DNA from: Gemmatimonadota bacterium
GTDB lineage: Bacteria; Gemmatimonadota; Gemmatimonadetes; Palauibacterales; Palauibacteraceae
DNA: 64,000 nt
Direction of reading: 5' to 3'
NCBI GenBank assembly: GCA_022825725.1
Contig: JAJDWE010000055.1
Coordinates: 92,919-156,918, forward strand
In this document: in pieces, positions 26,766-56,338 of the stretch
Numbering within the stretch: the first letter of the stretch is position 1
How the letters are laid out: each line of letters opens with the position of its first letter
Program-made: the position numbers and the translations under genes
Notes under the pieces: generated by a model
The model's database searches: none
The model's input: the letters and a program-made list of their open reading frames with translations, nothing else
What the model was told of the DNA's origin: nothing

Positions 26766-26770
26766 GACGC

Positions 26771-38379: not shown

Positions 38380-39669
38380 GTGAACTCGACCCCTCGAACC
38401 CCGCCCGTCGCGCGCCGGGAGATCGTCTCCTGGGCGATGTACGACTTCGCCCACTCGGCATTCGGCACGATCATCGTGACCTTCATCTTCTCCGCCTACT
38501 TCGCGCGCTCGATCGCACCCGACGCCGTCGTGGGAGGTGTCTGGTGGACGCGCGCAGTCACCGTCTCCGCAGTCACGACCGCGCTCATCATGCCAGTGGT
38601 GGGCGCGATGGGGGATTTCGGCGGCCTCAAGAAGCGGTTCCTGTTCATCGCCACCGTGGTTTGCGTCGCCCTGACGGCAGGCCTGTTCCGCATGGGGCCG
38701 GGCGACGCGTGGATCGCCGCGCTCATGTTCATCGGGGCCAGCGTGGCCTACGAGTCGATGCAGTCGCTCGCCAACGCGTTCCTTCCCGAGATCTCCACGC
38801 GAGAGAACATGGGACGGATATCCGGGCTGGGCTGGGGTCTCGGGTACTTCGGCGGCCTCCTCTGCCTTGTTCCGGCACTGGGAATGGTCAGCGGCTGGCT
38901 GCCGGAGGATGGGGGGCTGAACGTGCGGTCCACGAGCCTCCTCGCCGCCGGCTGGCTCCTCGTGTTCTCGATTCCGACCTTTCTCTTCCTTCGGGAGCGG
39001 CAGCCCCGCCGCCGCGCGTCACTCGGCACCTATGTGCGGATGGGATTCGGCCGCATCGCGGACACGGCCCGGGACCTGAGGCGCTATCGCCAGGCGGTCC
39101 GCCTGCTCGTCGCGCGTCTCGTCTACAACGACGGGCTCGCGACCGCCTTCGCCATGGCGGCGATCTTCGCCGGGGCCGAGTTCGGAATGGAGACGGCCGA
39201 CCTCCTCGTCCTCGGCATCGTCGTAAACGCGACGGCGGGCGCGAGCGCGATCGGCTTCGGCTTCGTCCAGGACCGGATCGGCGGGAAGCGAACGATCGCG
39301 GTCACGCTCGTGCTGCTGATGGTGGCGATCGGCATGGCATGGACCGCGCGGGATCTCCCCATGTTCTGGGCCGCGGCGATCCTTCTTGGGCTGATGGTCG
39401 GGCCGAACCAGGCGGGGAGCCGCGCGCTCCTCGGTTCGTTCGTGCCCGAGAACAAGCAGGGCGAACTATTCGGCTTCTACGCCTTTTCCGGCCGGCTTTC
39501 AGCCGCGGCGGGACCGCTCTCCTACGGGCTCATCCTCGGCGCCACGGGAAGCCACCGCTGGGCCATCGCCTCCATCCTCGTCTTCCTCGCCGCGGGGCTG
39601 CTGCTCCTGCTGCGGGTGGACGAGGAGGAAGGCGTGAAGCTGGCAACGGCGGAGGAAGCGCCCGGCTAG
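38380..39669 (+). CDS. UMF1/Atg22-type MFS transporter
   Basis: A 429-residue inner-membrane protein with about 12 hydrophobic segments. The N-terminus EIVSWAMYDFAHSAFGTII is the signature of the UMF1 (vacuole effluxer Atg22-like) family; GPNQAGSRALLGSFVPE is also typical. Substrate unknown, perhaps amino acids by analogy with Atg22. Start is GTG 38380 with GAAAGG about 9 nt upstream. The stop TAG shares the palindrome CTAG (39666-39669) with the stop of the convergent gene. Confidence 0.88.
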   Translation: MNSTPRTPPVARREIVSWAMYDFAHSAFGTIIVTFIFSAYFARSIAPDAVVGGVWWTRAVTVSAVTTALIMPVVGAMGDFGGLKKRFLFIATVVCVALTAGLFRMGPGDAWIAALMFIGASVAYESMQSLANAFLPEISTRENMGRISGLGWGLGYFGGLLCLVPALGMVSGWLPEDGGLNVRSTSLLAAGWLLVFSIPTFLFLRERQPRRRASLGTYVRMGFGRIADTARDLRRYRQAVRLLVARLVYNDGLATAFAMAAIFAGAEFGMETADLLVLGIVVNATAGASAIGFGFVQDRIGGKRTIAVTLVLLMVAIGMAWTARDLPMFWAAAILLGLMVGPNQAGSRALLGSFVPENKQGELFGFYAFSGRLSAAAGPLSYGLILGATGSHRWAIASILVFLAAGLLLLLRVDEEEGVKLATAEEAPG

Positions 39670-42600
39670 CCTTGCAGGCGGGCGGCGGCGGCGAGGGCGC
39701 GGCGGAGGAGGACCCGCTCGATCGCCGCGGTCGGGGAGATCGCGGCGGCGAGTGAATCGGCGCGAGCGCGCATCGAAGCGATGGTGACGGTCTCGAAGGC
39801 CCCGGGCACGGAGCCGCCATCGGGGCTTTCCGCCGCGGCGTCGAACAGGAACCGCACCAGCCGATCGTCGGGGTCGAAGGGACGGCCCTGGCCGAGCGAT
39901 TCCGGCCACAGCAGCGCGGCCTCCAGGTGGCGGCGGGCGGCCTCGCGGTCGCCGGCGTCCAGTTCATCGAGTGCGGCCCCGACGTGCGCGAATTCGTACA
40001 GGCGGTGGGCCTCGCCGGAGTTCTCCGACGGAAGGACGTGCGTGTCGCCGAGGATCCGGATCGCCTCGCCGTGCTCGCCGGCCTGGAGGAGTCCCCGCAC
40101 GTGGAGGAGGGCGAGGTTGAAGTCGTACGGGAAGAGTTCCCGTCCCCGCCCGGACGCCTCGCGCGCCTCCGCCCAGCGGCCCACTTCCTGCAGGTGCCGG
40201 ATGAGGGAGATGTGGAGGAGGCGGTGGTCGGGACCCACCTCGACCGCGCGCCGGAAGTCGGGGCCGGGGTCGCCGCTCGTGGCCCTCGCCAGGTGCGCGC
40301 GCGCCGCGTAGGCGGGTCCGTAGTCGGGCTCGTCGCCCAGGGTTGCCAGCACCTCGGCCGCCTCGGCGTCGCGGTCGAGCGCCCACAGGTTCAGGCCCAG
40401 GAGATAGCGCCAACCCCAGTGCGGGTCCTCGCCGGCCGCCCAGCGCAGGACCGGCAGCGTTTCGGGGCGGTAGGGGAAGGCGAAGGCGGGATCTGCCCCC
40501 GCCCGCAGCGCGTCCGCGTCTTCCGTCAGGAAGGCGCGCCACGCCGTGGCCACGGGGCCGCCGCCCACCTCGTCCGCCAGTTCCAGCAGGCGCGAGGCAT
40601 CGCCGGACAGCCCCCGGTTCGCGTAGCCCACGGTGAGCTCCAGCAGCGTCTGCCCCGGATACTCGCTCCGCATCGAAGCCGCGAGGCGCGCAGGGTCGGC
40701 CCCGCCAGCCGCCTCGTCGCCGTCGGTCGCCTCGTCGCCGCCGGATCCTCCGGCGCGCGCGGCGAGATAGCGCTCGGCCAGCACGAAGTGGTTCAGCGGG
40801 TCGAGTTCCAGAAGCTCCGCCCGCGCCTGCGCCGCGCCCGTTTCGTCTCCGTCCATGCGCGCCGCGATTGCCAGCACTTCGCGGGCCGGAATGCTCACGC
40901 GGTCGTGGTCGAGCGCGAGCCCGGCGTGACGCTGCACCTCGGCCAGGTCCCCGGCCTCGAGCGCCAACTCCGCCAGCCGAGTGCGCGCCGCGGCCCGGAA
41001 GCCGACCGACCGGGCGGCCCAGCCGAACGCGTCGAGCGCATCGGCACGGCGCCCGAGGGCGAGATAGAGGTTGCCGGCAAGGAAGTTGGCCTCGGCATCG
41101 TACGTGTCGAGTTGCAGCGCGCGCCGGGCGTGGACGAGGCCCTCTTCGTAACGGGCCGACCTCAGCGCCAGCGCGCCCAGCCCCAGGAGCGCCTCCCGGT
41201 TCCAGGGCTCGGCGGCGACCGCCCGTTCGTACAGCGTCCGCGCCTCCGGGTAGCGCCGCCCCCGCGCGAGTTCCCGCGCCTCGAACACCAGGCGATCCGT
41301 CTCCGGGAGGGCGTCCCACGCCTCGGCGTTCGTCGCAAACGGCCGGGACACGGACGGCTCTCCGCCGAATCCGCAGACCCCGGCGAGCCCGGTCGCGCCC
41401 GGCGTCGAGCACGCTTCCAGACCGAGCCCGGGCAGTGAAACGCGCCACGGCTGCGCTGGCGCGACGTCGAAATCCACCGTCAACGGCTCCAGCGGATCGA
41501 GCGCTACCGCCCGCGCGCCGACCTGTTCGCCGCCGGACCACGCGGTCACCGTGTCGGCCCCAGCCCCGAATGCCTGGACCACGACCCTCAGGCGACCACC
41601 CTCCCGCTCGACATGCATGGCGCCGTGGGGAGATGCGTCGGTAAGCCCGCCCGTCCCCTCCAGCGGGAACCACGTCTCCGTCCAGCGGCTGGCCGAGAGG
41701 GGATCGAACGCGCCCTGCGAGATCGGGTTGCGGTCCGCGCCCGGCTGGTACTGCGCGTGCAGCCGGCCCGCCTGGAACTCGACGTACTGTCCGTCCGTGT
41801 CGGTGAGCAGATCCTCCCAGACGCCGCCCGCCCGGGAGAGCGCCCACAGCCACATCTTGCGCCCGGGCATCTCTTCGTGCGGGGCCCAGTGCCCCCACCC
41901 GTAGTCCTCGTCGTGATAGTAGCCGCCGAAGAAGTCGTTCAGCGCCCCCACCACGTGATAGGACTTGTGTCCCCCGAACGCGTTGTTGCGGTACAGGGGC
42001 AGGAACCGTCCCTCTTCATCCTCGGGCCACGGGCGCACCCGGCCGGAGTGCTCCAGGTAGGCGTCCCCCGGCACGAACAGTTCCAGGTCGTCCTGCGCGA
42101 AGGCCGCGGCCGTCATCCAGTTGTAGTAGGGCTGCTCCAGCGGGGTCGGGTTGTACCACAGAACGCGCGTCTCGAAGGCGGCCCGGTCCGGCGGAAGGCG
42201 GATCTCGACCCGCCACGGCGTGCGCGACGGGAGGTCCGTGGCGCCGACGATCGTGCTGACGCTCCCGTCCGCGTTCTCCCGCACGAGATAGTCGACGGGC
42301 GTGGCCGTGGCCGGCGTGTGCCCGATGACGCCGAAGTTGAACTCGAGGCCGCCCGAGGTCCACGGTCCGCGCAGCGCGATGTCCCGGAACTTCATCACTT
42401 CGTTCCGATAGATGAACTCGTGGCCCGTCTCCTTCACCACGGCCCCCCACACCTTGCCGCCCACCTCGGGAAGGACGAAGACCTCGACGAGGTCGTTCTC
42501 CATCCTCACGACCTTCCACTCCCGGGGCTCCGACGTCGCCGCGTACCCCTCGAACGTGTGGTAGGGGTACAGCCGGCGGTCGGTGGCGAGCACCGGCACG

Positions 42601-42770
42601 GGGTTCGGATCCGAGAACGGGTACGTGTCGAGGACGCGCACCTCCTCGGAGATCCGCGCACGCGGTCCGGGGGCGTCGCACGAGACGACGGCCAGCGCGG
42701 CACACAGAACGGCCGCCCACGACAGCCCTCGCCTAAGCCGGGACCGCACTGGAGCACCGGGACATTTCAT
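39666..42770 (-). CDS. DUF5107 lipoprotein with C-terminal TPR repeats
   Basis: A 1034-residue secreted protein. Start ATG 42770 gives a lipoprotein signal with AVVSC (Cys31). The N-terminal half (about 45-400) is DUF5107: VLPEVGGKVWGAVVKETGHE, WTSGGLEFNFGVIGHTP, YNWMTAAAFAQDDLELFVPG, a beta-sandwich-like domain often linked with carbohydrate loci. From about 480 to the end it is a helical-repeat region of TPR type (ALLGLGALALRSARYEEGL, AEANFLAGNLYLALGRRADAL). It may bind or process glycans at the cell surface; the function is unproven. The convergent MFS gene shares its CTAG stop palindrome. Confidence 0.8.
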   Translation of the reverse strand: MKCPGAPVRSRLRRGLSWAAVLCAALAVVSCDAPGPRARISEEVRVLDTYPFSDPNPVPVLATDRRLYPYHTFEGYAATSEPREWKVVRMENDLVEVFVLPEVGGKVWGAVVKETGHEFIYRNEVMKFRDIALRGPWTSGGLEFNFGVIGHTPATATPVDYLVRENADGSVSTIVGATDLPSRTPWRVEIRLPPDRAAFETRVLWYNPTPLEQPYYNWMTAAAFAQDDLELFVPGDAYLEHSGRVRPWPEDEEGRFLPLYRNNAFGGHKSYHVVGALNDFFGGYYHDEDYGWGHWAPHEEMPGRKMWLWALSRAGGVWEDLLTDTDGQYVEFQAGRLHAQYQPGADRNPISQGAFDPLSASRWTETWFPLEGTGGLTDASPHGAMHVEREGGRLRVVVQAFGAGADTVTAWSGGEQVGARAVALDPLEPLTVDFDVAPAQPWRVSLPGLGLEACSTPGATGLAGVCGFGGEPSVSRPFATNAEAWDALPETDRLVFEARELARGRRYPEARTLYERAVAAEPWNREALLGLGALALRSARYEEGLVHARRALQLDTYDAEANFLAGNLYLALGRRADALDAFGWAARSVGFRAAARTRLAELALEAGDLAEVQRHAGLALDHDRVSIPAREVLAIAARMDGDETGAAQARAELLELDPLNHFVLAERYLAARAGGSGGDEATDGDEAAGGADPARLAASMRSEYPGQTLLELTVGYANRGLSGDASRLLELADEVGGGPVATAWRAFLTEDADALRAGADPAFAFPYRPETLPVLRWAAGEDPHWGWRYLLGLNLWALDRDAEAAEVLATLGDEPDYGPAYAARAHLARATSGDPGPDFRRAVEVGPDHRLLHISLIRHLQEVGRWAEAREASGRGRELFPYDFNLALLHVRGLLQAGEHGEAIRILGDTHVLPSENSGEAHRLYEFAHVGAALDELDAGDREAARRHLEAALLWPESLGQGRPFDPDDRLVRFLFDAAAESPDGGSVPGAFETVTIASMRARADSLAAAISPTAAIERVLLRRALAAAARLQG

Positions 42771-42877
42771 GCGAACGCTTCGCTCAACGTTGCACCTCGG
42801 GGAAGAAGGCCCTTCGTCCAGCCTAGCGGCGCTCGTAGCCGGACTCAACGTCTGGATTGCGTGGTTCGGTGCATCGG

Positions 42878-43403: not shown

Positions 43404-45614
43404 TTACGACGTTACGGTGGCGCCGTCGGCGGCGTCGGCGACGAACAGGGCGCGGCGGTCGACCCCTCCGCGGGCGGCGTAAAAACGATCGATCAACGCC
43501 TCGATCACGGCCTTCGCCCGGTTCGCGCGGCAGAGCGCGACCACGCAGCCGCCGAATCCCGCGCCCGTGAGCCGCGCCCCGGCCGCGCCCGCATCGAGCG
43601 CCACGCTCACGATCTCGTCGAGCGCCTGCGTGCTCACGCTGAAGTCATCGCGCAGGCTCGCGTGCGATGCGTTCATCAACCGGCCGAAGGCGGCCATGTT
43701 CCCGCTGCGAAGCGCGCGCTCGGCCTCGGTCACCCGGCGACCCTCCGTGGCCACGTGACGAAAGCGCCTCGACAACGTGAGCGGCAGGGACTTCCCGGCC
43801 CCGGCCAGGATGGCTGCGAACTCGTCCTCGTCGGCTTCCACGACCTCCGGCCAGGATGTCCGGCCCACCCGTTCGAGGGCCTCCGCGCACTGGGCCCGCC
43901 GCTCGTTGTACAACTCGCGTACCGCGCCCGCCTTCTCCGCGCGCGCCAGCGACGAGGCGACGATCCACCGCCATCCCTCCGGCACCGGCACCGGTGTCAC
44001 GCGCAGCGGCCCGAAGTCGATCCGCAGCGCGTGCCCTTCCTTCCCGCAGAGCGACGCCGCCTGGTCCATCCCGCCGCCCTGCACCCCGACGTAACGCTCG
44101 GCGCGGGCGAGGAGCGCCGCGAGTTCCAGCGCCTCCACCTCCGCTTCGTTGGCGTGCAGGAGCGCCAGCGCGGACGCCACCACGAGCGCGGACGAGGACG
44201 ACAGCCCCTCCGCCACCGGCACGGTGCCCGTGACCGTTCCGCGGATGCCTCGCTTCAGTCCCACGCCGTGGTCCTGCAACCCCCTGGCCGCGGCCCTCAC
44301 ATAGTTCGACCAGTGTCCCCGGGGTGCGGATTCGATCGTGCGGTCCAGCCGGAAGGCGAACGAACCGTGGGCGGCGTCGCCTTCGAGTTGGACCGTCGCG
44401 TGCTCGGCCCCCTCGAACTCCAGGTGGACGTGCCGGTCGAGAGCCATCGGCAGCACGGGCAGGCCGTTGTAGTCGATGTGCTCTCCGATCAGGTTGATGC
44501 GCCCCGGAGCGGTCGCGACCCCGCCGGGCGACGCCTGCGGCGGACCGAAGAGCGACGCCTGCGCCGCGCGGAGCGGCTCCGGGCGAACGTGCGGCGTCCA
44601 GAGATCGACGGGATACGCGCCGGCCTCGGTCAGTTGGCGGAGCGAGACGGCGACGCGCTCGCGGTCTTCGGGGAAGGTGACCCCCATCCACCCCGGCCCC
44701 ACGGGCACGAGGCCGCAGCGCGTCCGTTCGGCGGCGGCTAGGTCGCCGACGGCCTCCGACAGGTAGAACTCGTCCTCGAGCCCCGGGGAGGCCGCGAGGA
44801 AGTCCCGGAAACGCTCCTCCAGCTGGGGCAGGATCTCGGGGAAGAATCCCCACAGGCCCATGCACGCCGGACTGTCCGCGTCGACCCGGACCGCCGCGCC
44901 CGAGGCGGTGCGCCCGACGACGCCGGGCGGGGCGGCCGGGGATTCGGCGCCGGCGCCCGCCCGCGGCGCGTCGCCGTTACCCGTCCGCGATGCATCGCCG
45001 TCGAGGCGCAGATCCAGGCCCTCGGTCATGCGGAGCAGCGTGCCGTCGGGTCCCGCTTCGCACAGGCCGCGCGACACGCCGCCGTGGGCCGACAGAGTGT
45101 CCGCCAGAGGGGAGGTCGCCGTGAAGGCGCGGATGCCCGGGGGAGAAGCCGCGAGCGCGTGCGCCAGGCGCTCGTGCGCGACCCGCCCGTAGAAGTCGTC
45201 CGCGTTGCAGACGGCGAACGGACCCTGGCGGGGCAGGGCGGCCGCCGCGGCCAGCACGGCGAATCCCGTGCCCCAGGGCCGGACGCGCCCGGGCGGCGGG
45301 AGCGGGACCAGGTCCGCGTCAACGAGACGCTGGAAGGCGAAGGAGAGGGAGATCCCCGCATCCCGCAGCGGACGCAAGCGGGCCTCGAACTCGTCGCGCT
45401 GACTCTCCCGCACCACGAGCACGAAACGCCCGAATCCCGCGCGCACGGCGTCGTACACGGTGTATTCGATCAGCGATGCGCCGCCCGGCCCCACCGGTTC
45501 GAGCTGCTTGGCGCGACCGAACCGCGTGGATCGCCCTGCGGCGAGGATGACCAGCGTCGGCCGCTCCGGTCGATCGGCCGGCCGCGCGCCGCCGATCGGC
45601 CCGGTCCCGCTCAC
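43404..45614 (-). CDS. Fusion of a sugar nucleotidyltransferase and a galactokinase-family kinase
   Basis: A 736-residue two-domain enzyme. Residues about 19-342 are a nucleotidyltransferase: LVILAAGRSTRFGRAKQLEP (21-40), metal Asp in CNADDFYG (136-143). Residues about 365-736 are a GHMP kinase of galactokinase type: GRINLIGEHIDYN (371-383), PVAEGLSSSSALV (466-478), GGGMDQAAS with probable catalytic Asp517, and LTGAGFGGCVVAL near the end. Together they could phosphorylate a free hexose at C1 and then make the NDP-sugar. A low-complexity stretch (205-230) lies inside the first domain. Start GTG 45614 overlaps the GH63-like gene in GTGA. The sugar could be galactose, arabinose or an uronic acid; sequence alone does not decide. 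Confidence 0.85.
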   Translation of the reverse strand: MSGTGPIGGARPADRPERPTLVILAAGRSTRFGRAKQLEPVGPGGASLIEYTVYDAVRAGFGRFVLVVRESQRDEFEARLRPLRDAGISLSFAFQRLVDADLVPLPPPGRVRPWGTGFAVLAAAAALPRQGPFAVCNADDFYGRVAHERLAHALAASPPGIRAFTATSPLADTLSAHGGVSRGLCEAGPDGTLLRMTEGLDLRLDGDASRTGNGDAPRAGAGAESPAAPPGVVGRTASGAAVRVDADSPACMGLWGFFPEILPQLEERFRDFLAASPGLEDEFYLSEAVGDLAAAERTRCGLVPVGPGWMGVTFPEDRERVAVSLRQLTEAGAYPVDLWTPHVRPEPLRAAQASLFGPPQASPGGVATAPGRINLIGEHIDYNGLPVLPMALDRHVHLEFEGAEHATVQLEGDAAHGSFAFRLDRTIESAPRGHWSNYVRAAARGLQDHGVGLKRGIRGTVTGTVPVAEGLSSSSALVVASALALLHANEAEVEALELAALLARAERYVGVQGGGMDQAASLCGKEGHALRIDFGPLRVTPVPVPEGWRWIVASSLARAEKAGAVRELYNERRAQCAEALERVGRTSWPEVVEADEDEFAAILAGAGKSLPLTLSRRFRHVATEGRRVTEAERALRSGNMAAFGRLMNASHASLRDDFSVSTQALDEIVSVALDAGAAGARLTGAGFGGCVVALCRANRAKAVIEALIDRFYAARGGVDRRALFVADAADGATVTS

Positions 45615-47803
45615 CGGGACAACTCGACCGTTCGCATCTCGCCCGCGACGACGAGCCCTTCAACGCGCGCCCGGACGGCGCCGTCGCCGGTGGCCTCCCC
45701 GCGAGCGAGGAAGGCGGGCAGCCGGGAGCCGATGCGCAATCCGCGCCATGGACAGGCGTCGACGAACTCCTCGATCGCGCCCAGCGCGAACAGCGGCCCC
45801 CAGCTCTGGAAGCGGCGGCCCCGCCCCCGGCCGGTGCGCGCGTCGAAGTTCTCGCGGCAGAACCCCGTGCGCCGACGGTCGGACAGAAACATGAGCGCCC
45901 CTTTCCACGCCAGCTCGCTGGCGAATTCGTCGAACCCGTAGCGCCGCAGGCCCTGCAGCACGAGGTAATTCATGGGCGGCCAGATGGAGCCGCGCCAGTA
46001 CTGCTGGTCGTCGAACGCGGGGTCGTCGCGCGAAATCGTGGGCAGCACCCACTCTCCCCAAAAGCGCGCGGGGTCTCGCAGCACATCCACCATGCGCCGC
46101 GCTTGCCGCGCCGACGGCACGCCGGCGATCAGGGGAAGGAAGTTCGACGCCGCCACGCGCGGCGAGTGGCCCCCGGGCAGTTCGTCGAGGTAGAGCCCGG
46201 CGTCCTCGGACCACAGCACCCGGTTCATCGTTTCGACGAGGCGGCGACGCTCAACCTCCAACCGAGCCGCCTCCGCCGGGTCGCCGAGGATGCGGGCGAT
46301 CCGCGCCAGGCACTCGAGATCCAGGGCTCGGTAGCTGCACAGATCGACGGCGGACATGGCGAGGATTTCCCGCTCCGGATCCCATTCTGCCTCCTCCCAC
46401 AGCGGGAGGTCGTCCTGGCCCGATTCCCACGCCGCCCGCTGGTGTCCGCTCGCGCCCACTTCCCACTCCGGGAGCCGCCCGCGTTCCGGGACCAGGGCGG
46501 TATCCGAGCCCCACGCGAACAGACCGGGCGTGAGACCCTCCCGGCGCGGGCGCCCACCCTTGTCGGCCACCCACCAGTCGTTCCACGCGCGGAGCCCCGG
46601 CCAGGCGGCGGCCAAAGCGTCCGCATCGGGGCAGGCGAGGTGCAGCTTCAGCGCCGTGAACGATCCGACCGGGGGTTGAGAGCGGTCGGGCGTGCCGCCG
46701 AGACGGCTCTTCCAGTTGGGCACGTTCCCGTTCGGGTAGCGCGATTCGATCCCGGCGAGGAGGGCGTCCCAGGCGAGGGGTCCCGACGCGGTGGCGAGCG
46801 CGAGGGCGTTGAAGAAGGAATCCCACCCGAAGACGGTCCAGTCGTCGGGATCCGGCGCGCGGTCCCGGTCACCGTCCCACGGCTCCCCGTCGCCCTGCGC
46901 ATCGCCTCTCCGTGCGCCATCCCTCGGCTTCGGGAAGATCCAGCGGCGGCCGGCCGGTGCGTACAGGCGTCCGGTTTCCGGCTGCAGCAGGACGGTCCAC
47001 ATCAGGTTGTCCGTGACGGCCTCGACGAGTCCTTCCGCGGCTCCCGACCCACGAGGACGGCGGCGGTCCCAGTCGGCGCGCGCGTCGTCGATCCAGCGGT
47101 CCAGCTCGAGCAGGAGGCGGTGGGCACGGTCCAGGGCGGCACTGGATGGGGACGGCCGCCCCGGCGCGCCACGCAGCTCCCAGACGACCACGGCGGCTAC
47201 GCATTCCCCCTCCCGAGGTGCGAAGGCGGCTGCGATCTCCACGCCTCCCAGCGCGGCCCGCCAGCCGTCGGACGCGTCCTCCCACACCGTCTTCCATCCC
47301 CACGGATCGTCGCCTACCAACTCCACCCGGCCCGGCGCCCGCGCCACCGCCCGAAGCGCCACGGCATCCTCGCGGCGCGACCACTCCAGGATGAGCGTGC
47401 TTTCTCCGGGGCGGGACGTGGGAGACGGCTCGGCGGCGAGATCGAACTCCACGCGCGCATAGGATCCATCCGGCGCGTGGGGACCGACGCGGGAGACCAT
47501 CCAGTACCAGTCCTCCAGGTCCCGGCGCTCGCCGTCGGGCGCGGTGAAGACGAGGCGGAGCCCGATCCCGCCGCCGGATCCCGCCGCAAACACGAGCCCG
47601 GCCCAGCGGCGCGCCTCAAGCGCCCCGACCCGCATCATGCTGGTCCGATCCGCGTGCTCGGTTGGGCGGAATTCATGCCCTGCCAGTCTATGGCTGACCG
47701 TCCCGAGGGGCGACGGCCGCAAGGACTCGAGGGTTGGCAGGGCGGCCGTCACGCTCGCGAGCTTCAGCTCGGTCCGGCCTCCGCCGGCGGATCGGCTTGG
47801 CAC
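45611..47803 (-). CDS. GH63-like glucosidase/mannosylglycerate hydrolase ((alpha/alpha)6 barrel)
   Basis: A 730-residue glycoside hydrolase. Signature stretches of the GH63/GH37 fold: TVFGWDSFFNALAL, WESGQDDLPLW, YWRGSIWPPMNYLVLQGLRR, FCRENFDARTGRG and SWGPLFALGAIEEF. The N-terminal 230 residues form a beta-rich domain. No signal peptide is seen, so it acts in the cytosol on imported oligosaccharides. Known GH63 members cut alpha-glucosides, mannosylglycerate or glucosylglycerate. Start GTG 47803 is the first in frame and may be too early; a promoter candidate lies 19 nt upstream. The fusion kinase gene overlaps its stop by 4 nt. Confidence 0.82.
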   Translation of the reverse strand: MPSRSAGGGRTELKLASVTAALPTLESLRPSPLGTVSHRLAGHEFRPTEHADRTSMMRVGALEARRWAGLVFAAGSGGGIGLRLVFTAPDGERRDLEDWYWMVSRVGPHAPDGSYARVEFDLAAEPSPTSRPGESTLILEWSRREDAVALRAVARAPGRVELVGDDPWGWKTVWEDASDGWRAALGGVEIAAAFAPREGECVAAVVVWELRGAPGRPSPSSAALDRAHRLLLELDRWIDDARADWDRRRPRGSGAAEGLVEAVTDNLMWTVLLQPETGRLYAPAGRRWIFPKPRDGARRGDAQGDGEPWDGDRDRAPDPDDWTVFGWDSFFNALALATASGPLAWDALLAGIESRYPNGNVPNWKSRLGGTPDRSQPPVGSFTALKLHLACPDADALAAAWPGLRAWNDWWVADKGGRPRREGLTPGLFAWGSDTALVPERGRLPEWEVGASGHQRAAWESGQDDLPLWEEAEWDPEREILAMSAVDLCSYRALDLECLARIARILGDPAEAARLEVERRRLVETMNRVLWSEDAGLYLDELPGGHSPRVAASNFLPLIAGVPSARQARRMVDVLRDPARFWGEWVLPTISRDDPAFDDQQYWRGSIWPPMNYLVLQGLRRYGFDEFASELAWKGALMFLSDRRRTGFCRENFDARTGRGRGRRFQSWGPLFALGAIEEFVDACPWRGLRIGSRLPAFLARGEATGDGAVRARVEGLVVAGEMRTVELSR

Positions 47804-47936: not shown

Positions 47937-48866
47937 ATGATCGACGCACTGATCGGATACACTCCGACGCTCCGCCTCCAACGCGTCGTGGAGCCGGGTA
48001 TGGCGGAGGTCTGGGTCAAGCTGGAGGGGATGAATCCGGCCGGCTCGATCAAGGACCGGACCGCGCGCGCCATGGTCGACGACGCCGAGACGCAGGGATT
48101 GCTCGAGCCCGGCGGCACTATCGTCGAGCCGACCTCCGGCAACACCGGCATCGGCCTCGCCCAGATCGCCGCCTGGCGCGGGTACAGGCTCATCCTGTGC
48201 ATGCCGTCGTCGATGAGCGAGGAGCGGAAGCGCACTCTCAGCGCGTACGGCGCCGAATTCGTGCTGACCGACCCGGAACGGCGCATGCTGGCCGCGCGCG
48301 AGGAAGCCGAACGCATTTCCCGGGAATCCGGCGCCTACTATCCCGACCAGTTTTCCAATCCTGCGAACCCGCGCGTCCACTACCAGACGACCGGACCGGA
48401 ACTCTGGACCGACATGAAGGGACGCATCGACGTGTTCGTATATGGCTCCGGGACGGGCGGGACCATCAGCGGCACCGGGCGATTCCTCAAGGAACAGGAT
48501 CCGAACATCCAGGTCGTAGCCGTCGAACCGGCTCGCTCGCCGGTCATCTCGGGCGGCGAACGCGGCCAGCACCAGTTCCAGGGAATGGGGCCGGGCTTCA
48601 TCCCCGAGAACCTGGAGCGCACGATCCTCGACCGCGTGATCACCGTCTACGAGGAGGACGCGTTCCCGCTGGGCCGGCGCCTGGCCCGGGAAGAGGGGCT
48701 TTTTCTCGGAATGAGCAGCGGCGGCATCATCTACGCGGCGCTTCAGATCGCACGCGAGATCGGCCCCGGCCACCGGGTCGCCGCCATCTCGCCCGACGAC
48801 GGCGCCCGCTACCTGAGTACCGTGCTGTATTCGCCCGAGGATCCGCCGGAGACCGTGGCCCGCTAG
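47937..48866 (+). CDS. cysK: Cysteine synthase (O-acetylserine sulfhydrylase)
   Basis: PLP enzyme making cysteine from O-acetylserine and sulfide. The 309-residue protein has NPAGSIKDR with the PLP lysine, EPTSGNTGIGLA (substrate loop), GSGTGGTISGTGRFL (phosphate binding), GMGPGFIPENL and MSSGGIIYAAL. These favour CysK over mycobacterial-type CysM, which uses O-phosphoserine and CysO, though the CysO-like gene at 29319 keeps that alternative open. Start ATG 47937. It splits two sugar-related minus-strand blocks and its stop shares CTAG (48863-48866) with the convergent permease gene. Confidence 0.92.
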   Translation: MIDALIGYTPTLRLQRVVEPGMAEVWVKLEGMNPAGSIKDRTARAMVDDAETQGLLEPGGTIVEPTSGNTGIGLAQIAAWRGYRLILCMPSSMSEERKRTLSAYGAEFVLTDPERRMLAAREEAERISRESGAYYPDQFSNPANPRVHYQTTGPELWTDMKGRIDVFVYGSGTGGTISGTGRFLKEQDPNIQVVAVEPARSPVISGGERGQHQFQGMGPGFIPENLERTILDRVITVYEEDAFPLGRRLAREEGLFLGMSSGGIIYAALQIAREIGPGHRVAAISPDDGARYLSTVLYSPEDPPETVAR

Positions 48867-49696
48867 CGGAGCCCTTCCAGCTGGATGCCGCGTACGAAGT
48901 ACCGCTGGGTGAAGAGGAACAGGAGCGCGATGGGCAGGACGGCGACGACGCCGGCCGCCATCTGGTAGGGCCAGTTGATCTCGTAGGTCGAATGGAAGGC
49001 GGCGATCCCCACCTCGACCACGCGCATCTCCGTGGAGCGGGTCACGAGGAGCGGCCACAGCAGGTTCTTCCACGCGTCGACGAACGCGAACAGCGCGAGC
49101 GTGGCCACGGCGGGCTTCGCGAGCGGCAGGGCGACGCTCCAGAAGATGCGCACCCGCCCCGCCCCGTCCACGCGCGCGGCGTCCTCCAGTTCCCGGGGCA
49201 CCGTCCGGAAATACTGTCGCATGAGGAAGATCCCCCACACGGAGACGAGTTCCGTGGAGACGAGCCCCTGGTAGGTGTCGATCCAGCCGAGGGCCTCGAT
49301 CATGAGGAAGCGTGGGATGAGTACGACGACCGCCGGCACCATCATCGTCGACAGGAAGAGCATGAAGAGCCCGTCCCGCCCGGGAAATTCGAGGCGCGCG
49401 AAGGCGTACCCGGCCGTGGCCGAGGTCGCGACCTGGCCCGCCGCCACCGCCGTCGCGAATAGGAGCGAGTTCAGGAAGTAGCGGCTGAAGGGCTGGACCG
49501 TGAGCGCCTCGGGATAGTTCGACCAGCGGGGCGCGCGCGGCAGGAGGCCCCCGCCGGCGAACACCTCGAGCTGTCCCATGAGGCTCGTCAGGCCCATCCA
49601 CGCGAAGGGCGCTGCCATGACGAGGCACGCTGCGGCGAGCAGGAGCCCGCGCGCCGTCCGGGGGAGGGTGCGCTCAGGCACGGGCGCGCCGCGCAT
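48863..49696 (-). CDS. Sugar ABC transporter permease, MalG family
   Basis: Second inner-membrane subunit of a CUT1-type carbohydrate importer. The 277-residue protein has six hydrophobic segments and the EAA loop EDAARVDGAGRVRIFWSVAL, then PLAKP, which docks on the ATPase. TSATAGYAFARLEFPGRDG is also family-typical. ATG 49696 is used; GTG 49681 is an alternative (overlap with the other permease 23 or 8 nt). It is the last gene of the operon hydrolase-ATPase-binding protein-permease-permease. Confidence 0.92.
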   Translation of the reverse strand: MRGAPVPERTLPRTARGLLLAAACLVMAAPFAWMGLTSLMGQLEVFAGGGLLPRAPRWSNYPEALTVQPFSRYFLNSLLFATAVAAGQVATSATAGYAFARLEFPGRDGLFMLFLSTMMVPAVVVLIPRFLMIEALGWIDTYQGLVSTELVSVWGIFLMRQYFRTVPRELEDAARVDGAGRVRIFWSVALPLAKPAVATLALFAFVDAWKNLLWPLLVTRSTEMRVVEVGIAAFHSTYEINWPYQMAAGVVAVLPIALLFLFTQRYFVRGIQLEGLR

Positions 49697-51461
49697 CGAG
49701 GAAGCGGAAGTGCAGCCAGGTGGCGGCGAACACGACCGCGAACAGCAGCCAGCTCATCGCCGCCGCGTTGCCGAACTGCAGGAACTCCCACGCCTCGCGG
49801 TAGATGTGATAGACGGCGACGTCCGTGGCGCCCAACGGGCCGCCCTCGGTCATCACATAGACGAGCCCGAACACCTGGAAGGAGCCGATCACCGATGTGA
49901 CAAGCACGAAGAACAGGGTGTGGCGCAGGCCGGGCAGGGTGACGTGGCGGAAGCGCTGCCACGGCCCCGCGCCGTCGACCCGCGCCGCATCGTACCAGTC
50001 GCGCGGGATCGCGGCGAGGCCTGCTTGAAAAATAACCATCTGATAGCCGACGACCATCCAGATGCCGATCAGCATCAGGCTGACGAGCGCGGTGTCGGGT
50101 GACGTGAGCCAGGGGACGGACTCGAGTCCGGCGCGCTCCAGACCGCGGTTCACCAGCCCGTACCGGTCGCTCAGCAACCACTTCCACACCACCGCGATCG
50201 CCGCCACGCTCGTGATGCCGGGCAGGAAGAGGGCGAGCCGCGCCCAGCGCATGGCGCGGCGCGATCCCCGGGTGAGGAGCGCCAGGGCGAGGGCGATGGC
50301 CATCGCGGCGGGCACGTGCAGGGTGAACAGCGCCGTGTTGCCGATCGCCGACCACCACTCGCCGTCCCCGAGCAGCGTCGCGTAGTTGTCGAGTCCGAGG
50401 AAGAGCGGCGCGGGGTCGATGAGGCGCCATTCGTGCAGCGAGATCCACAGGGAGAAGAGGAGCGGTCCGAGAGTGAACGCGAGGATGAGGGCCGCCGCCG
50501 GGGCGAGGAGACCCCACGCCGCCAGCGTTCGGCGCAGGGCGCGGGGGCGGGCCGCGAGCTGCGCGAGGTGGAGGGCCAGCGCCACGAGGAGGGCGGCGAG
50601 CGCGCCGGCCGCGGCCAGCGGGAGAGCGGGCGAGGCGGTGCGCTCGTATCCGAGGAAGGCGAGGTGGACGTCGGCGGTGCGAGCTGCGTGCCAGGTGGCG
50701 CCGTCCGCTTCCACCGCGTACGGCGCGCCCACGGGCGTGTCGCCGGGCAGCGCCGTGCTGCGGTCGGGCCGCGCGGCGATCGCCGCCGCGGCGGCGGGCG
50801 GCATCGTCCATTGCTCGTCCGCAGCCTCCAGCGAGCGGTCCTCGGCCCACGGGAGGTGGGCGACCCGGGCGGCGCGGGCCGGATCCGCGCCGGTCGCCAT
50901 AGCGAGTTCGACGGCCCGCGCGCCCTGGGCCACGGTGGAGGCGCTCAGCGCGCGGAGTTCGCGGTCCGCCCACCTCCCGGCGGCGACCGTCGTCAGGGCG
51001 ACGCAGCCGATGGAGAGGAGCGCGATGCCGGTCGGGTAGCGCCCGACCGTCGGCCCGCGGCGTCGTCTCGCGGCCCAGCCCGAGATGAGCGCCGCGCCCG
51101 CGAGCGCGATGGCCGTGGCGGCGAGGGGGAAGGTCGTCCCGGGACCACCGGCGCGGTGCGGCGCGACGGCGATCCAGACGGCGGGGTCGAGCGCGGCCGC
51201 CTCATAGGCGTATGCCCCGGCCCGGCCGCCTCCGTCGCCCGCACCGAGGATCGTCGCGCGCTCGCCCAGCAGCCCGGCCACCGCCTGGTCGCTGCCCCCT
51301 TCCTCCTCCCACAGCGCGGCCGCCATGCGAGCCTCGGCTTCCGCCGCGACCGTCCGTGTGCCCGCCACCCGGCCTGCGACGACGGCCAGCATCAGACCGA
51401 GGCCGGCCACGAGGGCGACGGCGGCGAGGGCGTCGAGCACCGGCTGCCGCAGGCCGCTCAC
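49674..51461 (-). CDS. Sugar ABC transporter permease, MalF family, with a ~310-residue N-terminal membrane module
   Basis: The C-terminal 285 residues (312-595) are an ordinary MalF-type permease with EAA loop YDAARVDGAGPWQRFRHVTL, then PGLRH. In front lies an unusual module of four predicted membrane helices (about 12-31, 110-130, 143-162, 279-302) enclosing two extracytoplasmic loops of about 78 and 116 residues, rich in Ala. This recalls the two-helix-plus-loop layout of sensor receptors. E. coli MalF has a periplasmic loop, but between its own helices, not as an N-terminal block. Start GTG 51461 is fixed by the GTGA overlap with the binding-protein gene; the next upstream codon is also GTG. 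Confidence 0.85.
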   Translation of the reverse strand: MSGLRQPVLDALAAVALVAGLGLMLAVVAGRVAGTRTVAAEAEARMAAALWEEEGGSDQAVAGLLGERATILGAGDGGGRAGAYAYEAAALDPAVWIAVAPHRAGGPGTTFPLAATAIALAGAALISGWAARRRRGPTVGRYPTGIALLSIGCVALTTVAAGRWADRELRALSASTVAQGARAVELAMATGADPARAARVAHLPWAEDRSLEAADEQWTMPPAAAAAIAARPDRSTALPGDTPVGAPYAVEADGATWHAARTADVHLAFLGYERTASPALPLAAAGALAALLVALALHLAQLAARPRALRRTLAAWGLLAPAAALILAFTLGPLLFSLWISLHEWRLIDPAPLFLGLDNYATLLGDGEWWSAIGNTALFTLHVPAAMAIALALALLTRGSRRAMRWARLALFLPGITSVAAIAVVWKWLLSDRYGLVNRGLERAGLESVPWLTSPDTALVSLMLIGIWMVVGYQMVIFQAGLAAIPRDWYDAARVDGAGPWQRFRHVTLPGLRHTLFFVLVTSVIGSFQVFGLVYVMTEGGPLGATDVAVYHIYREAWEFLQFGNAAAMSWLLFAVVFAATWLHFRFLDARRARA

Positions 51462-52827
51462 CACTCGAACTCCGCGTCGATGCGGCGGGCCACGTCCGAG
51501 GCGCTCGACGCGAGGGATTCTCCGCGCACCAGCCGGCGGTCCATGATCTCCACCGCCAGCGCCTCGATCCGGGAGAAGTCGCGCACCCGCGCGCCCCACG
51601 TCATCCGGGCGCCCGGCACGAGCGCGATGAACGCGTCCTCGACTCCGGTGCCGTCCGCCGCGGCGATCTCCGCCGCCACATCAGTCCGCGAGGGAATGGC
51701 GAGTCCCGACCGCGCCCGGATGCGCTGGGCCTCGGGCGAGGCGAGGAAGCCGGCGAGGTCGATGGCGCGGCGCAGGTTCGGCGCGTTGGGCGGCACGGCC
51801 CACCCCGAAGCGTAGAGCACGCTGGTCGCCGCCGTCCGCGAGGGGTGGTGCGGAATGGGGACGATGGCCAGGTCCAGCGCGCCCGCCTCCACCAGATCGC
51901 GGAACACGGGGAGCGTCCAGTGTCCCGAGAGGAGGAACGCCTGTCCCCCGGATGCGAAGCGCGCCTCCCGCGCGGGGTCCCCCTGCTGGACAAACTGCGC
52001 GCCCGGCGTGAGGCCGTCCTCCGCCAGCGCCGTGAGGAAGCGGTACGCCTCCAGCGCTTCCGGCCCGTCCAGGTAGCCCGCCGCGCGGCCTCCGTCGGGC
52101 CCGAGGATGTCGCCGCCCGCCGACCACACGAAGGGAACCCACTGGTACAGGTTGCGTGGGAAGTCGAACCCGTACACGTCCGGCCGGCCGTCCCCGTCGT
52201 GTCCCCTACGACCGCCTCCGCGGCTCGCCGGAAGTCCGTCCAGGTCCAACCGGCCGGCGCGACCTCCGATGGCCCCGCAGGCGACCAGACGGCGGGCAGA
52301 AGGTACTCGGCGCCCGCGGCGGCGAGCACGCTCCGGTTCGCGTACAGGACCATCGGCGTGAAGTCCTTCGGCAGCGCGAACATGGATGGGCCCCGGCGAA
52401 ACGCGTCCGCCACCTGCCCGAACACGCTGTCCGGCCGAAAGCCGAGCGCCTCCTGGTAGGGGGCGAGGTCCAGCGCCAGCCCGCGTTCCACGAAGGTGGG
52501 GATGTCGGGCGAATCCATGAGGTAGACGTCGGGGGGACGCCCCGCCGCGATCGAGGTCAGCAGCCGCTCCTCGTATCCGTTGGGGGCTGATTCGAGCACG
52601 ATCCGCACGCCGGGGTGCAGGGCTTCGTAGCGGTCGGCGACCTGGCGCTCGATCTCCAGTTCGTGGCCTCCGGCCCAGAGGGCTACGCGCAGGGCGGTGT
52701 CGGACCCGCCGGGGGCGCACGCGACCGTCGTGGCGGCGACGGCGAAGACGACGGCCGAGACGAGGGCCGTGGCCCCGCCGGTGGCTGGGCGAAGGGGTCG
52801 GCGGGTACGCGGCCGCGAGTTCGTCAT
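51458..52827 (-). pseudogene. Sugar ABC transporter substrate-binding lipoprotein, interrupted by a frameshift
   Basis: Two frames together encode one extracellular solute-binding protein family 1. The first part (52827 to about 52206) has a lipoprotein signal (TTVAC) and ALWAGGHELEIERQVADRYE, then RPPDVYLMDSPDI and FALPKDFTPMVLYANR. The second part (about 52203 to 51458) continues with DGDGRPDVYGFDFPRN, LYQWVPFVWSAGG and ASGWAVPPN up to the normal end. The switch falls at CCCC (52203-52206 on the plus strand; GGGG in the gene). One extra G would restore VVGGHDGDGRPDVYGF. Both ends keep exact 4-nt overlaps with their neighbours, so either a sequencing error, a very recent mutation or -1 slippage is likely. 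Intact length would be about 456 residues. Confidence 0.85.
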
Positions 52828-53990
52828 GGCGAGGCCGGCAGGTCCATGGGTCGCGGCGCGGCCTCCTCGCGGCGGCCGTCCGGACCGAACAGGTGGCTCC
52901 GCTCCCACGCGACCGAGACGCTCACGCGGTCGCCGGGGTCGACCCGCAGGGCCGGGGACGCGCGCGCCACCCAGGCCGCGTCGCCGGGGCCGTCCAGGTG
53001 CACCCGCTGCTCGCTGCCCAGCGCCTCGACGCGGAGCACGCCGGCCCGGAAGTCACCCGCTTCGCCCGAACCGCGATCCCCGGCGCGCGCTTCGCCGTCG
53101 CCCTCGCTCGTCCTCGCGACGGCCAGATCCTCCGGCCGCACGCCGAGCGTGGCCCGGTCGACCCCCGACGGCGCCTGGAGCGCGAACGGGCCGCCCGCGA
53201 GGCGCCCCGCATCGTCGCGGGCCAAGGCGATGCGGTTGATGGGCGGCGACCCAACGAACCCGGCGACGAACAGGTTGGCCGGGCGGCGATAGACCTCCTC
53301 CGGCGTGCCCACCTGGTGGAGCCGGCCCTGATCCATGACCGCGACCCGCTGGCCCAGCGACAGGGCTTCCACCTGGTCGTGCGTCACGAAGATCATCGTC
53401 GTGCCGAGGCGCCGGTGCAGGGCGGCGATCTCGTCGCGGGTCCGCAGCCTCAGCTCCGCGTCGAGGTTCGAGAGCGGCTCGTCGAACAGAAACACGCCCG
53501 GATCGCGGACCATCGCCCGTCCCAGGGCCACCCGCTGGCGCTGTCCCCCGGACAGCTCGCCGGGCCTCCGCGACAGCAGTTCGGCGAGCCCGAGTGCGGC
53601 CGCGGCCTCCGCGACGCGCCGCTCGATCCCGGCTCGCGGAGTCCCGCGCACGCGCAGGCCGAAGCCCAGATTCCCGGCCACCGTCATGTGCGGGTAGAGG
53701 GCGTAGCTCTGGAACACCATCGCCACGTCGCGGGCCCCCGGTTCGACGTCGTCCACCCGCCGTCCCCCGATCCACACCTCACCCGCGGTGGGTTCGACGA
53801 GGCCGGCGATGAGTCGCAACAGCGTGCTCTTGCCGCACCCGGAAGGGCCGACCAGAACCATCAGCTCCCCGGGCCGGACCTCGAGATCGAGCGACCGCAC
53901 GGCGACGACCTCGCCGTACCGCTTCTCCACGCCGCGCAGTTCGACGCCCTGCGGGGCGCGACTCACGGAGCCCTGTGATGCACGGCTCAC
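52824..53990 (-). CDS. Sugar ABC transporter ATP-binding protein, MalK/UgpC family
   Basis: ATPase of the importer. The 388-residue protein has Walker A VGPSGCGKSTLLRLIAG, Q-loop MVFQSYALYPHMTV, signature LSGGQRQRVALGRAMVRD, Walker B FLFDEPLSNLDAELR, H-loop FVTHDQVEAL, and a C-terminal OB-fold regulatory part (VGSPPINRI, LGVRPEDLAV, GSEQRVHLDGPG). Start GTG 53990 lies in a GTGA overlap with the hydrolase; a second GTG at 53966 follows a 24-nt imperfect repeat (SRASQGSV, then SRAPQGV). It overlaps the binding-protein start by 4 nt. Confidence 0.94.
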   Translation of the reverse strand: MSRASQGSVSRAPQGVELRGVEKRYGEVVAVRSLDLEVRPGELMVLVGPSGCGKSTLLRLIAGLVEPTAGEVWIGGRRVDDVEPGARDVAMVFQSYALYPHMTVAGNLGFGLRVRGTPRAGIERRVAEAAAALGLAELLSRRPGELSGGQRQRVALGRAMVRDPGVFLFDEPLSNLDAELRLRTRDEIAALHRRLGTTMIFVTHDQVEALSLGQRVAVMDQGRLHQVGTPEEVYRRPANLFVAGFVGSPPINRIALARDDAGRLAGGPFALQAPSGVDRATLGVRPEDLAVARTSEGDGEARAGDRGSGEAGDFRAGVLRVEALGSEQRVHLDGPGDAAWVARASPALRVDPGDRVSVSVAWERSHLFGPDGRREEAAPRPMDLPASP

Positions 53991-56269
53991 GGAGCCCACG
54001 GAACGCGCAGCGCCTCGCCGCGCGGCCCCTCCAGCCGCTCTCCGTCCACCGTGGCCGTCACCCGCCCCGGTGCCACGTCCACGCACACGGTGCGCCCCCT
54101 CGCGACGACGGGTCCCAGCGACACGCGAGCCGGACCGTTCGGCAGCGGCCGCACCTCGATGCCCGAGGCGTCCAGGTGGAGCCCCGCGAATCCGCGCGCC
54201 AGCAGATCGAGGATCCACGAGTGCTGGTAGTCGTCGATGCCCCGGAAGTGACAGGCCCGCCCCGTGTGCGGGTTGTAGTGCTCGAAACAGTTGGGGCGCG
54301 AGGGATCGCCGTCGGTGAACATCATGCGCGCGAAGCGGTTGAGCATGTCCGCCGCCAGCGCGCCGGCGCGCTGGCTCCCGCCGCGCCAGCACCGCAGCAG
54401 CCCTTCGATCACGTGGCTCGTCGTCATCGGCCAGACGCGTCCGTTCCACGGACAGTTGCGGCGCTTCCCCCGCCAGATGCCCTCCGCCGAAAATCGCGGA
54501 TCGTCCACGCTCGACGAGGGCAGCGGGAAGCGCGTGCCGAACGTCCGGGGATCCTCGAGGTGGTCGAGCAGGGCCTCGAGGCGGGCTCCGCCCACCCGGC
54601 CGGTGAGCAGCGGGTAAAATCCAACCGCGGCCTTCACGCCGGTGCGCTCGCCGGTGCGTCCATCCACATCCGTGAACAGACCGGCCTCCGCCGACCACAT
54701 GCGTCCGTCGATCGCCTTCCAGCAGCGGTCCGCGAGCCCGCGCCACCCGGCCTCGTCCCCCGGCCGCTCCACGCGGCGCGCCACCGAAGCGAGGGCGCGG
54801 AACAACTGGTGCGCGTACACGGTGACGTCGATCCCCTTGAGGCGGAGACGGGGACGCCACCCCGCCACGTCGGCCTCCCCGTCCACCGCCATGTAGCGCG
54901 ACATGTATTCCTGTCCCGTCTCGAAGTGGTTCGTGACGGTGAACATGCCCGACGCCTCGGGGTCGCGCTCCGCCGTCAGCCAGCGGGCGTAGCGCGACAG
55001 TCCCTCGTAGCAGCGGGCCAGCGCCGCCGCATCGGGGTGCATGTCATCGACCGCGAGCAGCGCGTCGCCCCAGTTCGCGTGGTAGAAGTCGGTCCCCTCG
55101 AGGCGCTCGGGATAGAGGCGCCCGTGGAAGGAGCCGTCGGGCTTCCGGTTGTCGACGAAGTTCAGGAGCGAGCCCCACGCCTCGCGCCCGCCCTTCCGCC
55201 AGCGCATCTCCATCATGTGGCACTGCGCGCTGTAGGCGATCGGCGCGTGGAAGTACTCCGGCCCCTCGGCGATGGCGGGATGCCGCACCGGCCCCCACCG
55301 ACCCTCGATGCGGTTCAGGCCGAGGCCGTAGATGCGATAGTCGAAATAGCGGTCGAGATACGGGTCGCCGCTCTCGAAGTGCGGAAAACCGCCGAAGAAG
55401 GACTCCCAGGCGGACGCCGTCCCGGACGACGGGGCCAGCCCCCGGGCTTCGGCGCCCCGGAGGCGGAGGGTCAGACGGAAGGTCTGAGGCCCGCCGTTGT
55501 CGATTCCTGCGAGCGGAAGCGCGACGGCGATCCAGATCCACCCGGAGCGTCGGACCCCCGGATCGGCGTTCGGATCGGCGTTCGGGTCGGGAGGCGGGCC
55601 GGACGCGGCGCCGGCACCCGCGGCCGCCGTGTTCCCCAGGGCACCGCCGCCGTCCGCGAAGGGCGAATGACGCCATTCCGGCGTGGCGCGGCCCTCGGAT
55701 GGGATGATGCGCCGCCATGCGGGCGAGACGGAGCCCGCGAGTTCCATGCGCAGGACCAGTTCCTGCCCGCGCCGGTCCGAGACGGTCCGTGTCCAGCCCA
55801 CCCCGGCCGCCGTGGGCTCCACCCCGTCCGTCGCGTCCGCCGGCTGCGCGGTGAAGCCGACGACACACCCCTCGAGTTCGGCCGGGACGTGCCACGCGGA
55901 TTCCAGAATACCGCCCGGCAGCACCTGGCGGCGCTCCTCGAAGATGAGGCCGCGCTCGTCCGACCACGTGGCGACCAGCCGCCCGGGCCGCCACCGGCGT
56001 GGCGTCGCCTCGCGACCGTCCGGGTCGCCGGCAGCTCCTCGGAGCCGGGCCTCCGCCCCGTCATCCACGAGCGCCACGGAGAACCCCGGGCCGACTTCGT
56101 GCTGCAGCAGATGGACCGGATCCCAGAACCCCGGCCGGTGCAGCCACCGCGGGAACGGCGGCGCCCACACCACGCCGTCCAGCCCGCCCAGAAACCACTT
56201 GTCCTCGCGCTCCAGCGCCGCGATGCGAGCCCGGGGGGAAGCGGCGGGGCGGGACGGAGGGGCGTTCAT
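53987..56269 (-). CDS. Glycoside hydrolase, MGH1/GH63-like (alpha/alpha)6 barrel
   Basis: A 760-residue cytosolic hydrolase heading the importer operon. Residues about 1-290 are a beta-rich N-terminal domain with LEREDKWFLGGLDGVVWAPP, and 320-700 form the helical barrel: YFDYRIYGLGLNRIEGRWG, FVDNRKPDGSFHGR, FETGQEYMSRYMAVDG, RNCPWNGRVWPMTTSHVIEG and DYQHSWILDLLARGF. The Asp/Glu in these stretches fit a retaining or inverting acid pair, but I cannot name the bond cut. A repeat of Asn-Ala-Asp-Pro codons lies at about residue 232. ATG 56269 is used (in-frame ATG 56290 possible). Its coupling to the ATPase implies the imported glycan is its substrate. Confidence 0.8.
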   Translation of the reverse strand: MNAPPSRPAASPRARIAALEREDKWFLGGLDGVVWAPPFPRWLHRPGFWDPVHLLQHEVGPGFSVALVDDGAEARLRGAAGDPDGREATPRRWRPGRLVATWSDERGLIFEERRQVLPGGILESAWHVPAELEGCVVGFTAQPADATDGVEPTAAGVGWTRTVSDRRGQELVLRMELAGSVSPAWRRIIPSEGRATPEWRHSPFADGGGALGNTAAAGAGAASGPPPDPNADPNADPGVRRSGWIWIAVALPLAGIDNGGPQTFRLTLRLRGAEARGLAPSSGTASAWESFFGGFPHFESGDPYLDRYFDYRIYGLGLNRIEGRWGPVRHPAIAEGPEYFHAPIAYSAQCHMMEMRWRKGGREAWGSLLNFVDNRKPDGSFHGRLYPERLEGTDFYHANWGDALLAVDDMHPDAAALARCYEGLSRYARWLTAERDPEASGMFTVTNHFETGQEYMSRYMAVDGEADVAGWRPRLRLKGIDVTVYAHQLFRALASVARRVERPGDEAGWRGLADRCWKAIDGRMWSAEAGLFTDVDGRTGERTGVKAAVGFYPLLTGRVGGARLEALLDHLEDPRTFGTRFPLPSSSVDDPRFSAEGIWRGKRRNCPWNGRVWPMTTSHVIEGLLRCWRGGSQRAGALAADMLNRFARMMFTDGDPSRPNCFEHYNPHTGRACHFRGIDDYQHSWILDLLARGFAGLHLDASGIEVRPLPNGPARVSLGPVVARGRTVCVDVAPGRVTATVDGERLEGPRGEALRVPWAP

Positions 56270-56322
56270 CGGAACAGCATCGAACCGCATGCCGCGCCGG
56301 TCAACGGCCCGACGTATCCGGC

Positions 56323-56338
56323 GGCGCCGCGCGGCGCC
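56323..56338. promoter_or_regulatory. 16-bp perfect palindrome upstream of the importer operon
   Basis: GGCGCCGCGCGGCGCC is identical to its reverse complement. It lies 54 nt upstream of the hydrolase start and 94 nt from the divergent lipoprotein gene, inside the only intergenic space serving the importer operon. A dimeric repressor (for example LacI type) could bind it; pure-GC composition makes chance occurrence possible. Confidence 0.4.

Follow-up and report, generated by a model that had tools for sequence, protein, structure and literature searches.

We found that a single gene in the window, the 64,000-nucleotide stretch of DNA analyzed here, encodes a 736-residue protein in which a nucleotidyltransferase of the 3pnn type is joined to a GHMP kinase of the GALK2 type. 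Judged by its sequence and genomic context, the protein is probably a bifunctional N-acetylgalactosamine (GalNAc) salvage enzyme that would convert GalNAc to GalNAc-1-phosphate and then to UDP-GalNAc. The kinase half would phosphorylate C1 of free GalNAc with ATP by means of Asp517, Arg372, and the glycine-rich GLSSSSAL loop, and the nucleotidyltransferase half would couple GalNAc-1-phosphate with an NTP, most likely UTP, to give UDP-GalNAc and pyrophosphate. An earlier note on this DNA had proposed a one-protein route from a free sugar through the sugar-1-phosphate to an NDP-sugar, with galactose as the likely sugar; our comparisons favor such a route, and signature positions and genomic context indicate GalNAc in place of galactose. 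We lean slightly toward a broader reading, in which the protein is the fused form of a widespread, undescribed Gemmatimonadota route that bypasses GalT and the GalNAc-6-phosphate/tagatose route, and in which it displaced a split native pair.

The window belongs to a 3.49-Mb Gemmatimonadota MAG, and nearly all of the genomes of the phylum that we compared are MAGs as well; from the names of matching MAG bins, the genus appears to be sponge-associated. The gene lies on the minus strand, which the earlier note omitted while placing it correctly at 43404-45614, and runs from a GTG start at 45614 to a stop at 43404. All the motifs quoted in that note occur in the 736-aa translation. The gene and its parts are as follows.

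43404..45614, minus strand: nucleotidyltransferase-kinase fusion gene, 736 aa (ORF, Pfam, PDB, congeners)
44595..45563, minus strand: N-terminal nucleotidyltransferase domain, residues 18-340 (motifs LAAGRSTRFGRAKQ, PWGT, NADDFYG; 3pnn match)
44532..44594, minus strand: linker, residues 341-361 (fast-evolving, low model confidence)
43413..44531, minus strand: C-terminal GALK2-like sugar kinase domain, residues 362-734 (GEHIDYN, GLSSSSAL, GGGMDQ with catalytic Asp517, GAGFGG)

The frame is uninterrupted, with a third-position GC of 0.84-0.96 along the whole gene. Twelve other congeneric genomes carry the intact fusion at 75-95% identity, which brings the count to 13 of the 17 genomes of the genus. 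A frame merge or assembly artifact was ruled out by the single frame, the coding composition, and the presence in 13 genomes. Across these 13 genes, dN/dS was 0.26-0.38 in the N-terminal half and 0.19-0.27 in the C-terminal half (about 0.19-0.38 overall); purifying selection acts on both halves. The same set shows no change at the catalytic residues of the nucleotidyltransferase or at those kinase motif residues that were sampled. AlphaFold2 modeled the kinase half confidently (pLDDT mostly >90) and the nucleotidyltransferase half with partial confidence.

In the N-terminal half, Pfam NTP_transf_3 matched residues 22-159 (7.6e-10) and the PDB chain 3pnn_A covered residues 18-338 (5e-53). The latter is a Porphyromonas structure deposited under the name "conserved domain protein," without an assigned function. 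Among 42 nucleotidyltransferase relatives, L24-A-A-G27, R31, K36, Q95, P113, G115, T116, N137, D139, D140, Y142, G143, and E198 never vary, a pattern that fits an active sugar-1-phosphate nucleotidyltransferase. Full-length homology and the conserved catalytic residues place it in the 3pnn type; we found no characterized member of that family, and a literature search on 3PNN returned no relevant paper. UTP is the most likely nucleotide, a guess from family resemblance. That the N-terminal half is instead a degenerate or regulatory remnant and the protein a kinase only is highly improbable: the half does evolve slightly faster and model less well than its partner, and zebrafish DrUP offers a precedent of a domain with no detectable activity in vitro (PMC3938481), but all of the family-invariant catalytic residues are kept in the 13 fused copies and the fused genomes hold no other nucleotidyltransferase of the 3pnn type. 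The 3pnn-type nucleotidyltransferases of Erysipelotrichaceae have Sir2, M19 peptidase, FGGY kinase, and Trk genes as neighbors, and no consistent sugar context was seen among the genes beside them.

The C-terminal half aligned with sugar kinases and not, as the earlier note had allowed for, with a non-sugar GHMP kinase. Pfam GalKase_gal_bdg, GHMP_kinases_N, and GHMP_kinases_C matched at 362-712 (1e-16 each), and the best PDB match was human GalNAc kinase 2a2c (residues 363-733, 1.7e-54), galactokinases following at 1e-46 and weaker. The half also passed the TIGR00131 galactokinase equivalog model (261.1 against a cut-off of 226.65 bits), which would suit a galactose version of the pathway, from Gal to Gal-1-P to UDP-Gal by a GalT-free, Isselbacher-type route. 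We consider that version unlikely. The "galactokinase" label stems from family models in which GALK1 and GALK2 are not told apart, and the loop reads GGGMDQ, as in human GALK2, in place of the galactokinase-type CGIMDQ. The half has the GGGMDQ loop, a one-residue deletion, and an insertion near the Tyr569 region, which makes it GALK2-type by criteria taken from our own comparison with human GALK2 rather than from a published definition. Gly-Gly/Ala-Met-Asp is common to the window kinase and to 42 relatives, human GALK2 among them; the same positions are Gly-Ile-Met-Asp in 58 of 59 galactokinases, with Val in the remaining one. These 43 GALK2-like rows also differ from the 59 galactokinases at Gly513 (Cys in galactokinases), Gly515 (Ile), and Ala519 (Phe), in the one-residue deletion, in an insertion at 556-558, and in having no Arg at 562.

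In a maximum-likelihood tree, a 100/99 branch sets the galactokinases apart (18 rows, including human GALK1 and Lactococcus lactis GalK), and the window kinase's clade lies opposite them together with human GALK2, a long branch that attaches to the stem between the two clades and the sole characterized GalNAc kinase in the comparison. The half has neither the CGIMDQ loop nor a position in the galactokinase clade. The small residues ahead of the catalytic Asp would make room for an N-acetyl group, and genomic context supports a preference of the predicted kinase for GalNAc over Gal. Fold was uninformative as a criterion between GALK1 and GALK2, Foldseek having ranked human GALK1 above GALK2 for the kinase half.

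No GalT was found in the window's genome or in any of the 35 genomes of its family, which bears out the earlier claim of independence from the uridylyltransferase; because GalT is absent, the Leloir route is unavailable in this family. This absence, together with that of any other galactokinase in the genome, is compatible with galactose as the substrate, but a profile search of the window's genome returned no GalE over the cut-off and relatives of the kinase are linked to GH109 genes. In the sister family f2, moreover, GalT occurs in six of eight genomes and the GALK2-like kinase stands beside a second kinase (36-39% identical) and GalT; since these coexist, the GALK2-like kinase is not the Leloir kinase there. 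For the GalNAc route, the window offers a candidate next step.

137..1156, minus strand: WbpP/WbgU-type UDP-GlcNAc/UDP-GalNAc 4-epimerase (1sb8 WbpP, 1.4e-112; TviC model, 5e-122)

This gene is not linked to the fusion operon. In three loci of the symporter-linked clade described below (L043, L115, and L158), the nucleotidyltransferase has as its neighbor an NDP-sugar epimerase that belongs to the same superfamily. Given these two observations, a step from UDP-GalNAc to UDP-GlcNAc, which the WbpP-type enzyme would catalyze, should be available.

Outside the fused genomes, the nucleotidyltransferase and the kinase are separate genes. The former adjoins a sodium/sugar symporter in almost every split locus, with the kinase nearby; the closest solved relative of the symporter is the bacterial sodium/glucose-type (vSGLT-like) cotransporter 2xq2. 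One clade has the gene order nucleotidyltransferase-symporter-kinase, and in the other the kinase follows a GH109 gene. The split kinase adjoins GH109 in about 14 Gemmatimonadota loci, and in 19 genomes of family f6 the two genes share a strand and are at most about 2 kb apart. The GH109 protein is a full-length relative of the characterized α-N-acetylgalactosaminidase NagA (2ixa, 4e-144), and the active-site residues E149, Y179, H181, Y225, H228, and Y307 are kept, including in the window's own genome. Matches to the fusion's halves were present in 37 of 38 GH109-positive genomes of family f6 versus 3 of 25 without GH109, and in 29 of 29 versus 3 of 14 in the window's order; these are raw counts from sampled genomes that ignore relatedness, and the linkage recurs in many genera. 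The proposed Gemmatimonadota GalNAc route would comprise GH109, the sodium symporter, the GALK2-type kinase, the 3pnn-type uridylyltransferase, and the 4-epimerase.

Some GH109 loci hold further genes. A type I phosphodiesterase family gene lies between GH109 and the kinase in several of them (L035, L120-L122, L124, and L126; 4207-5136 in L120), and in some of the phosphodiesterase-bearing loci an endo/exonuclease/phosphatase-family gene precedes GH109; this arrangement perhaps reflects a GalNAc-phosphodiester substrate. A conserved protein of about 280-300 aa without a Pfam match (2400-3311 in L141, 11413-12243 in L117) always follows GH109 in the loci of the genus that we read, except L145.

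Within the genus, the four non-fused genomes retain the native kinase in all cases and the native nucleotidyltransferase in three. Their locus reads GH109-hypothetical protein-kinase, converging on symporter-nucleotidyltransferase (L117 and L118; divided between two contigs, L130 and L131, in another genome). In the seven fused genomes inspected (L141, the window's own, L142-L144, and L146-L148), GH109, the hypothetical protein hyp277, and the symporter are kept, and no remnant of the native kinase or nucleotidyltransferase was found at this locus. No other copy of either gene was found in the fused genomes except G034, and in the window's genome the fusion is the only copy of both. Because it is the only copy while the GH109-symporter locus is kept without kinase or nucleotidyltransferase, the GalNAc route is the most likely one, and the replacement of the native pair there connects the fusion with the GH109-symporter pathway and hence with GalNAc. 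The sugar would be supplied by the GH109 enzyme and the sodium symporter from that other locus, and possibly also by the fusion's own ABC/GH63 operon.

The tree groups the fused kinase, on a branch of its own, with the nucleotidyltransferase-symporter-kinase clade of another family, and it does not descend from the congeners' native kinases; the loci of its parent clade are not adjacent to GH109, which counts against the GalNAc assignment. On the simplest reading, the role passed to a fused pair that came from outside the genus, and the native genes were lost. The fusion would have arisen once, from a co-directional nucleotidyltransferase-symporter-kinase set like that of the neighboring family, and would have taken over the function of the separate kinase and nucleotidyltransferase native to the genus. 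Two genomes depart from this distribution. G315, of another family, also carries an intact fusion, within the same 75-95% identity range, in a fused operon (L156, G315:C81); its contig matches G036 at 92-94% identity through most of that operon, and the genome is probably mis-binned; G034, a fused genome with a listed contamination of 7%, has the extra split copy (L115, G034:C13). Cross-binning of MAGs is the probable explanation for both, rather than recent transfer.

The fusion is part of a cluster with the following members.

53987..57091, minus strand: second MGH1-like glycoside hydrolase (PF22422, 3e-42; synteny)
52824..53948, minus strand: ABC ATPase of UgpC/MalK type, part of a longer open frame (profile match)
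51601..52908, minus strand: extracellular solute-binding protein (Pfam, synteny)
49674..51599, minus strand: ABC sugar permease, UgpA/MalF-like (profile matches, synteny)
48863..49696, minus strand: ABC sugar permease, UgpE/MalG-like (profile matches, synteny)
45611..47803, minus strand: GH63/MGH1-like glycoside hydrolase, coupled to the fusion (Pfam PF22422, 5e-47; YgjK and TTHA0978 relatives; synteny)
39666..42848, minus strand: DUF5107 and TPR protein, downstream of the fusion (Pfam, synteny)

The run from the second hydrolase through the ATPase, binding protein, two permeases, GH63-like hydrolase, and fusion to the DUF5107/TPR protein is conserved in all of the fused genomes in which we read the genes around the fusion. 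The stop of the GH63-like gene and the start of the fusion overlap in GTGA, and the operon link between the two is therefore real. The earlier note had taken this coupling to suggest that the sugar comes from a degraded oligosaccharide; the hydrolase is indeed conserved and coupled within the operon, but the enzymes related to it are of the alpha-glucosidase type and do not give the identity of the sugar. Neither the GH63-like hydrolases nor the Ugp/Mal-type ABC importer suggests GalNAc, and this is the weakest point of the GalNAc assignment. The enzyme could instead have shifted in specificity and now activate another sugar, one that the GH63-like enzymes would free from an oligosaccharide after its import, as the conserved, translationally coupled operon and the separate branch of the fused clade might suggest. 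We think this quite unlikely, given that GGGMDQ and the neighboring signature positions are constant in every fused copy and that the GH109-symporter locus is retained without another kinase.

Among the other genes of this region, the DUF5107/TPR protein has a lipoprotein-like N terminus and one solved DUF5107 relative (5cd6); a search on DUF5107, on which there is almost no literature, yielded no useful paper. Within the operon, but in the opposite orientation, lies a PALP-family (cysteine synthase-like) gene (47937-48866, plus strand); among the relatives read, it was found in L129 only. A leucine-rich-repeat protein with a Peptidase_M66-like C-terminal part adjoins the operon (57188-59848, minus strand).

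The predicted reaction pair from GalNAc through GalNAc-1-P to UDP-GalNAc resembles that of human GALK2, which shares the GGGMDQ signature, and its UDP-HexNAc pyrophosphorylase; the human enzymes are two unlinked proteins, whereas a single bacterial polypeptide would serve here. The human pyrophosphorylase belongs to another family than the fusion's nucleotidyltransferase. Zebrafish DrGKUP, a glucuronokinase/putative pyrophosphorylase whose pyrophosphorylase activity was undetected in vitro, likewise has a short bacterial-type nucleotidyltransferase at its N terminus and a GHMP kinase at its C terminus but is eukaryotic and uses glucuronate (PMC3938481). Bacteroides FKP, an L-fucokinase/GDP-fucose pyrophosphorylase, also performs one-protein NDP-sugar salvage with an N-terminal pyrophosphorylase and a C-terminal GHMP-superfamily kinase, and differs in its 949 aa, beta-helix, large linker, and use of fucose and GTP (PMC11982464). 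Its layout, described earlier as different, has the same domain order, as does DrGKUP; no FKP chain was among the PDB matches to the fusion at E<=0.001. In the Bacteroides thetaiotaomicron PUL BT4240-50, genes for a GH109 alpha-GalNAcase, a GalNAc-1-kinase, and a sugar transporter of the inner membrane are linked, much as proposed for the Gemmatimonadota loci, but the kinase BT4240 has the unrelated APH/NahK fold and no nucleotidyltransferase is described (PMC11992087).

Kinase/pyrophosphorylase fusion is thus known from fucose and glucuronate enzymes; the literature searched contained no GALK2-type kinase combined with a nucleotidyltransferase of the 3pnn type, and this pairing appears to be new. 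If the proposed function is correct, it gives a predicted role to the structurally solved, uncharacterized 3pnn family and a bacterial counterpart to human GALK2 that automatic annotation names galactokinase. It also suggests how GH109-released GalNAc, from mucin- or sponge-type glycans, can be activated without galactose-type or tagatose-type pathways, and a single enzyme that converts free GalNAc to UDP-GalNAc would be of practical use in preparing this sugar nucleotide and tagged analogues.

A similar salvage logic, with an anomeric kinase followed by a uridylyltransferase, operates in AmgK-MurU peptidoglycan recycling, where the sugars are MurNAc/GlcNAc and the enzymes are separate proteins of other families. 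The window itself encodes a MurU-like nucleotidyltransferase (26627-27517, plus strand; MurNAc-1-P uridylyltransferase models at 2e-33, below the cut-off) and an N-acetylmuramoyl-L-alanine amidase (22257-23516, plus strand), possibly peptidoglycan recycling genes.
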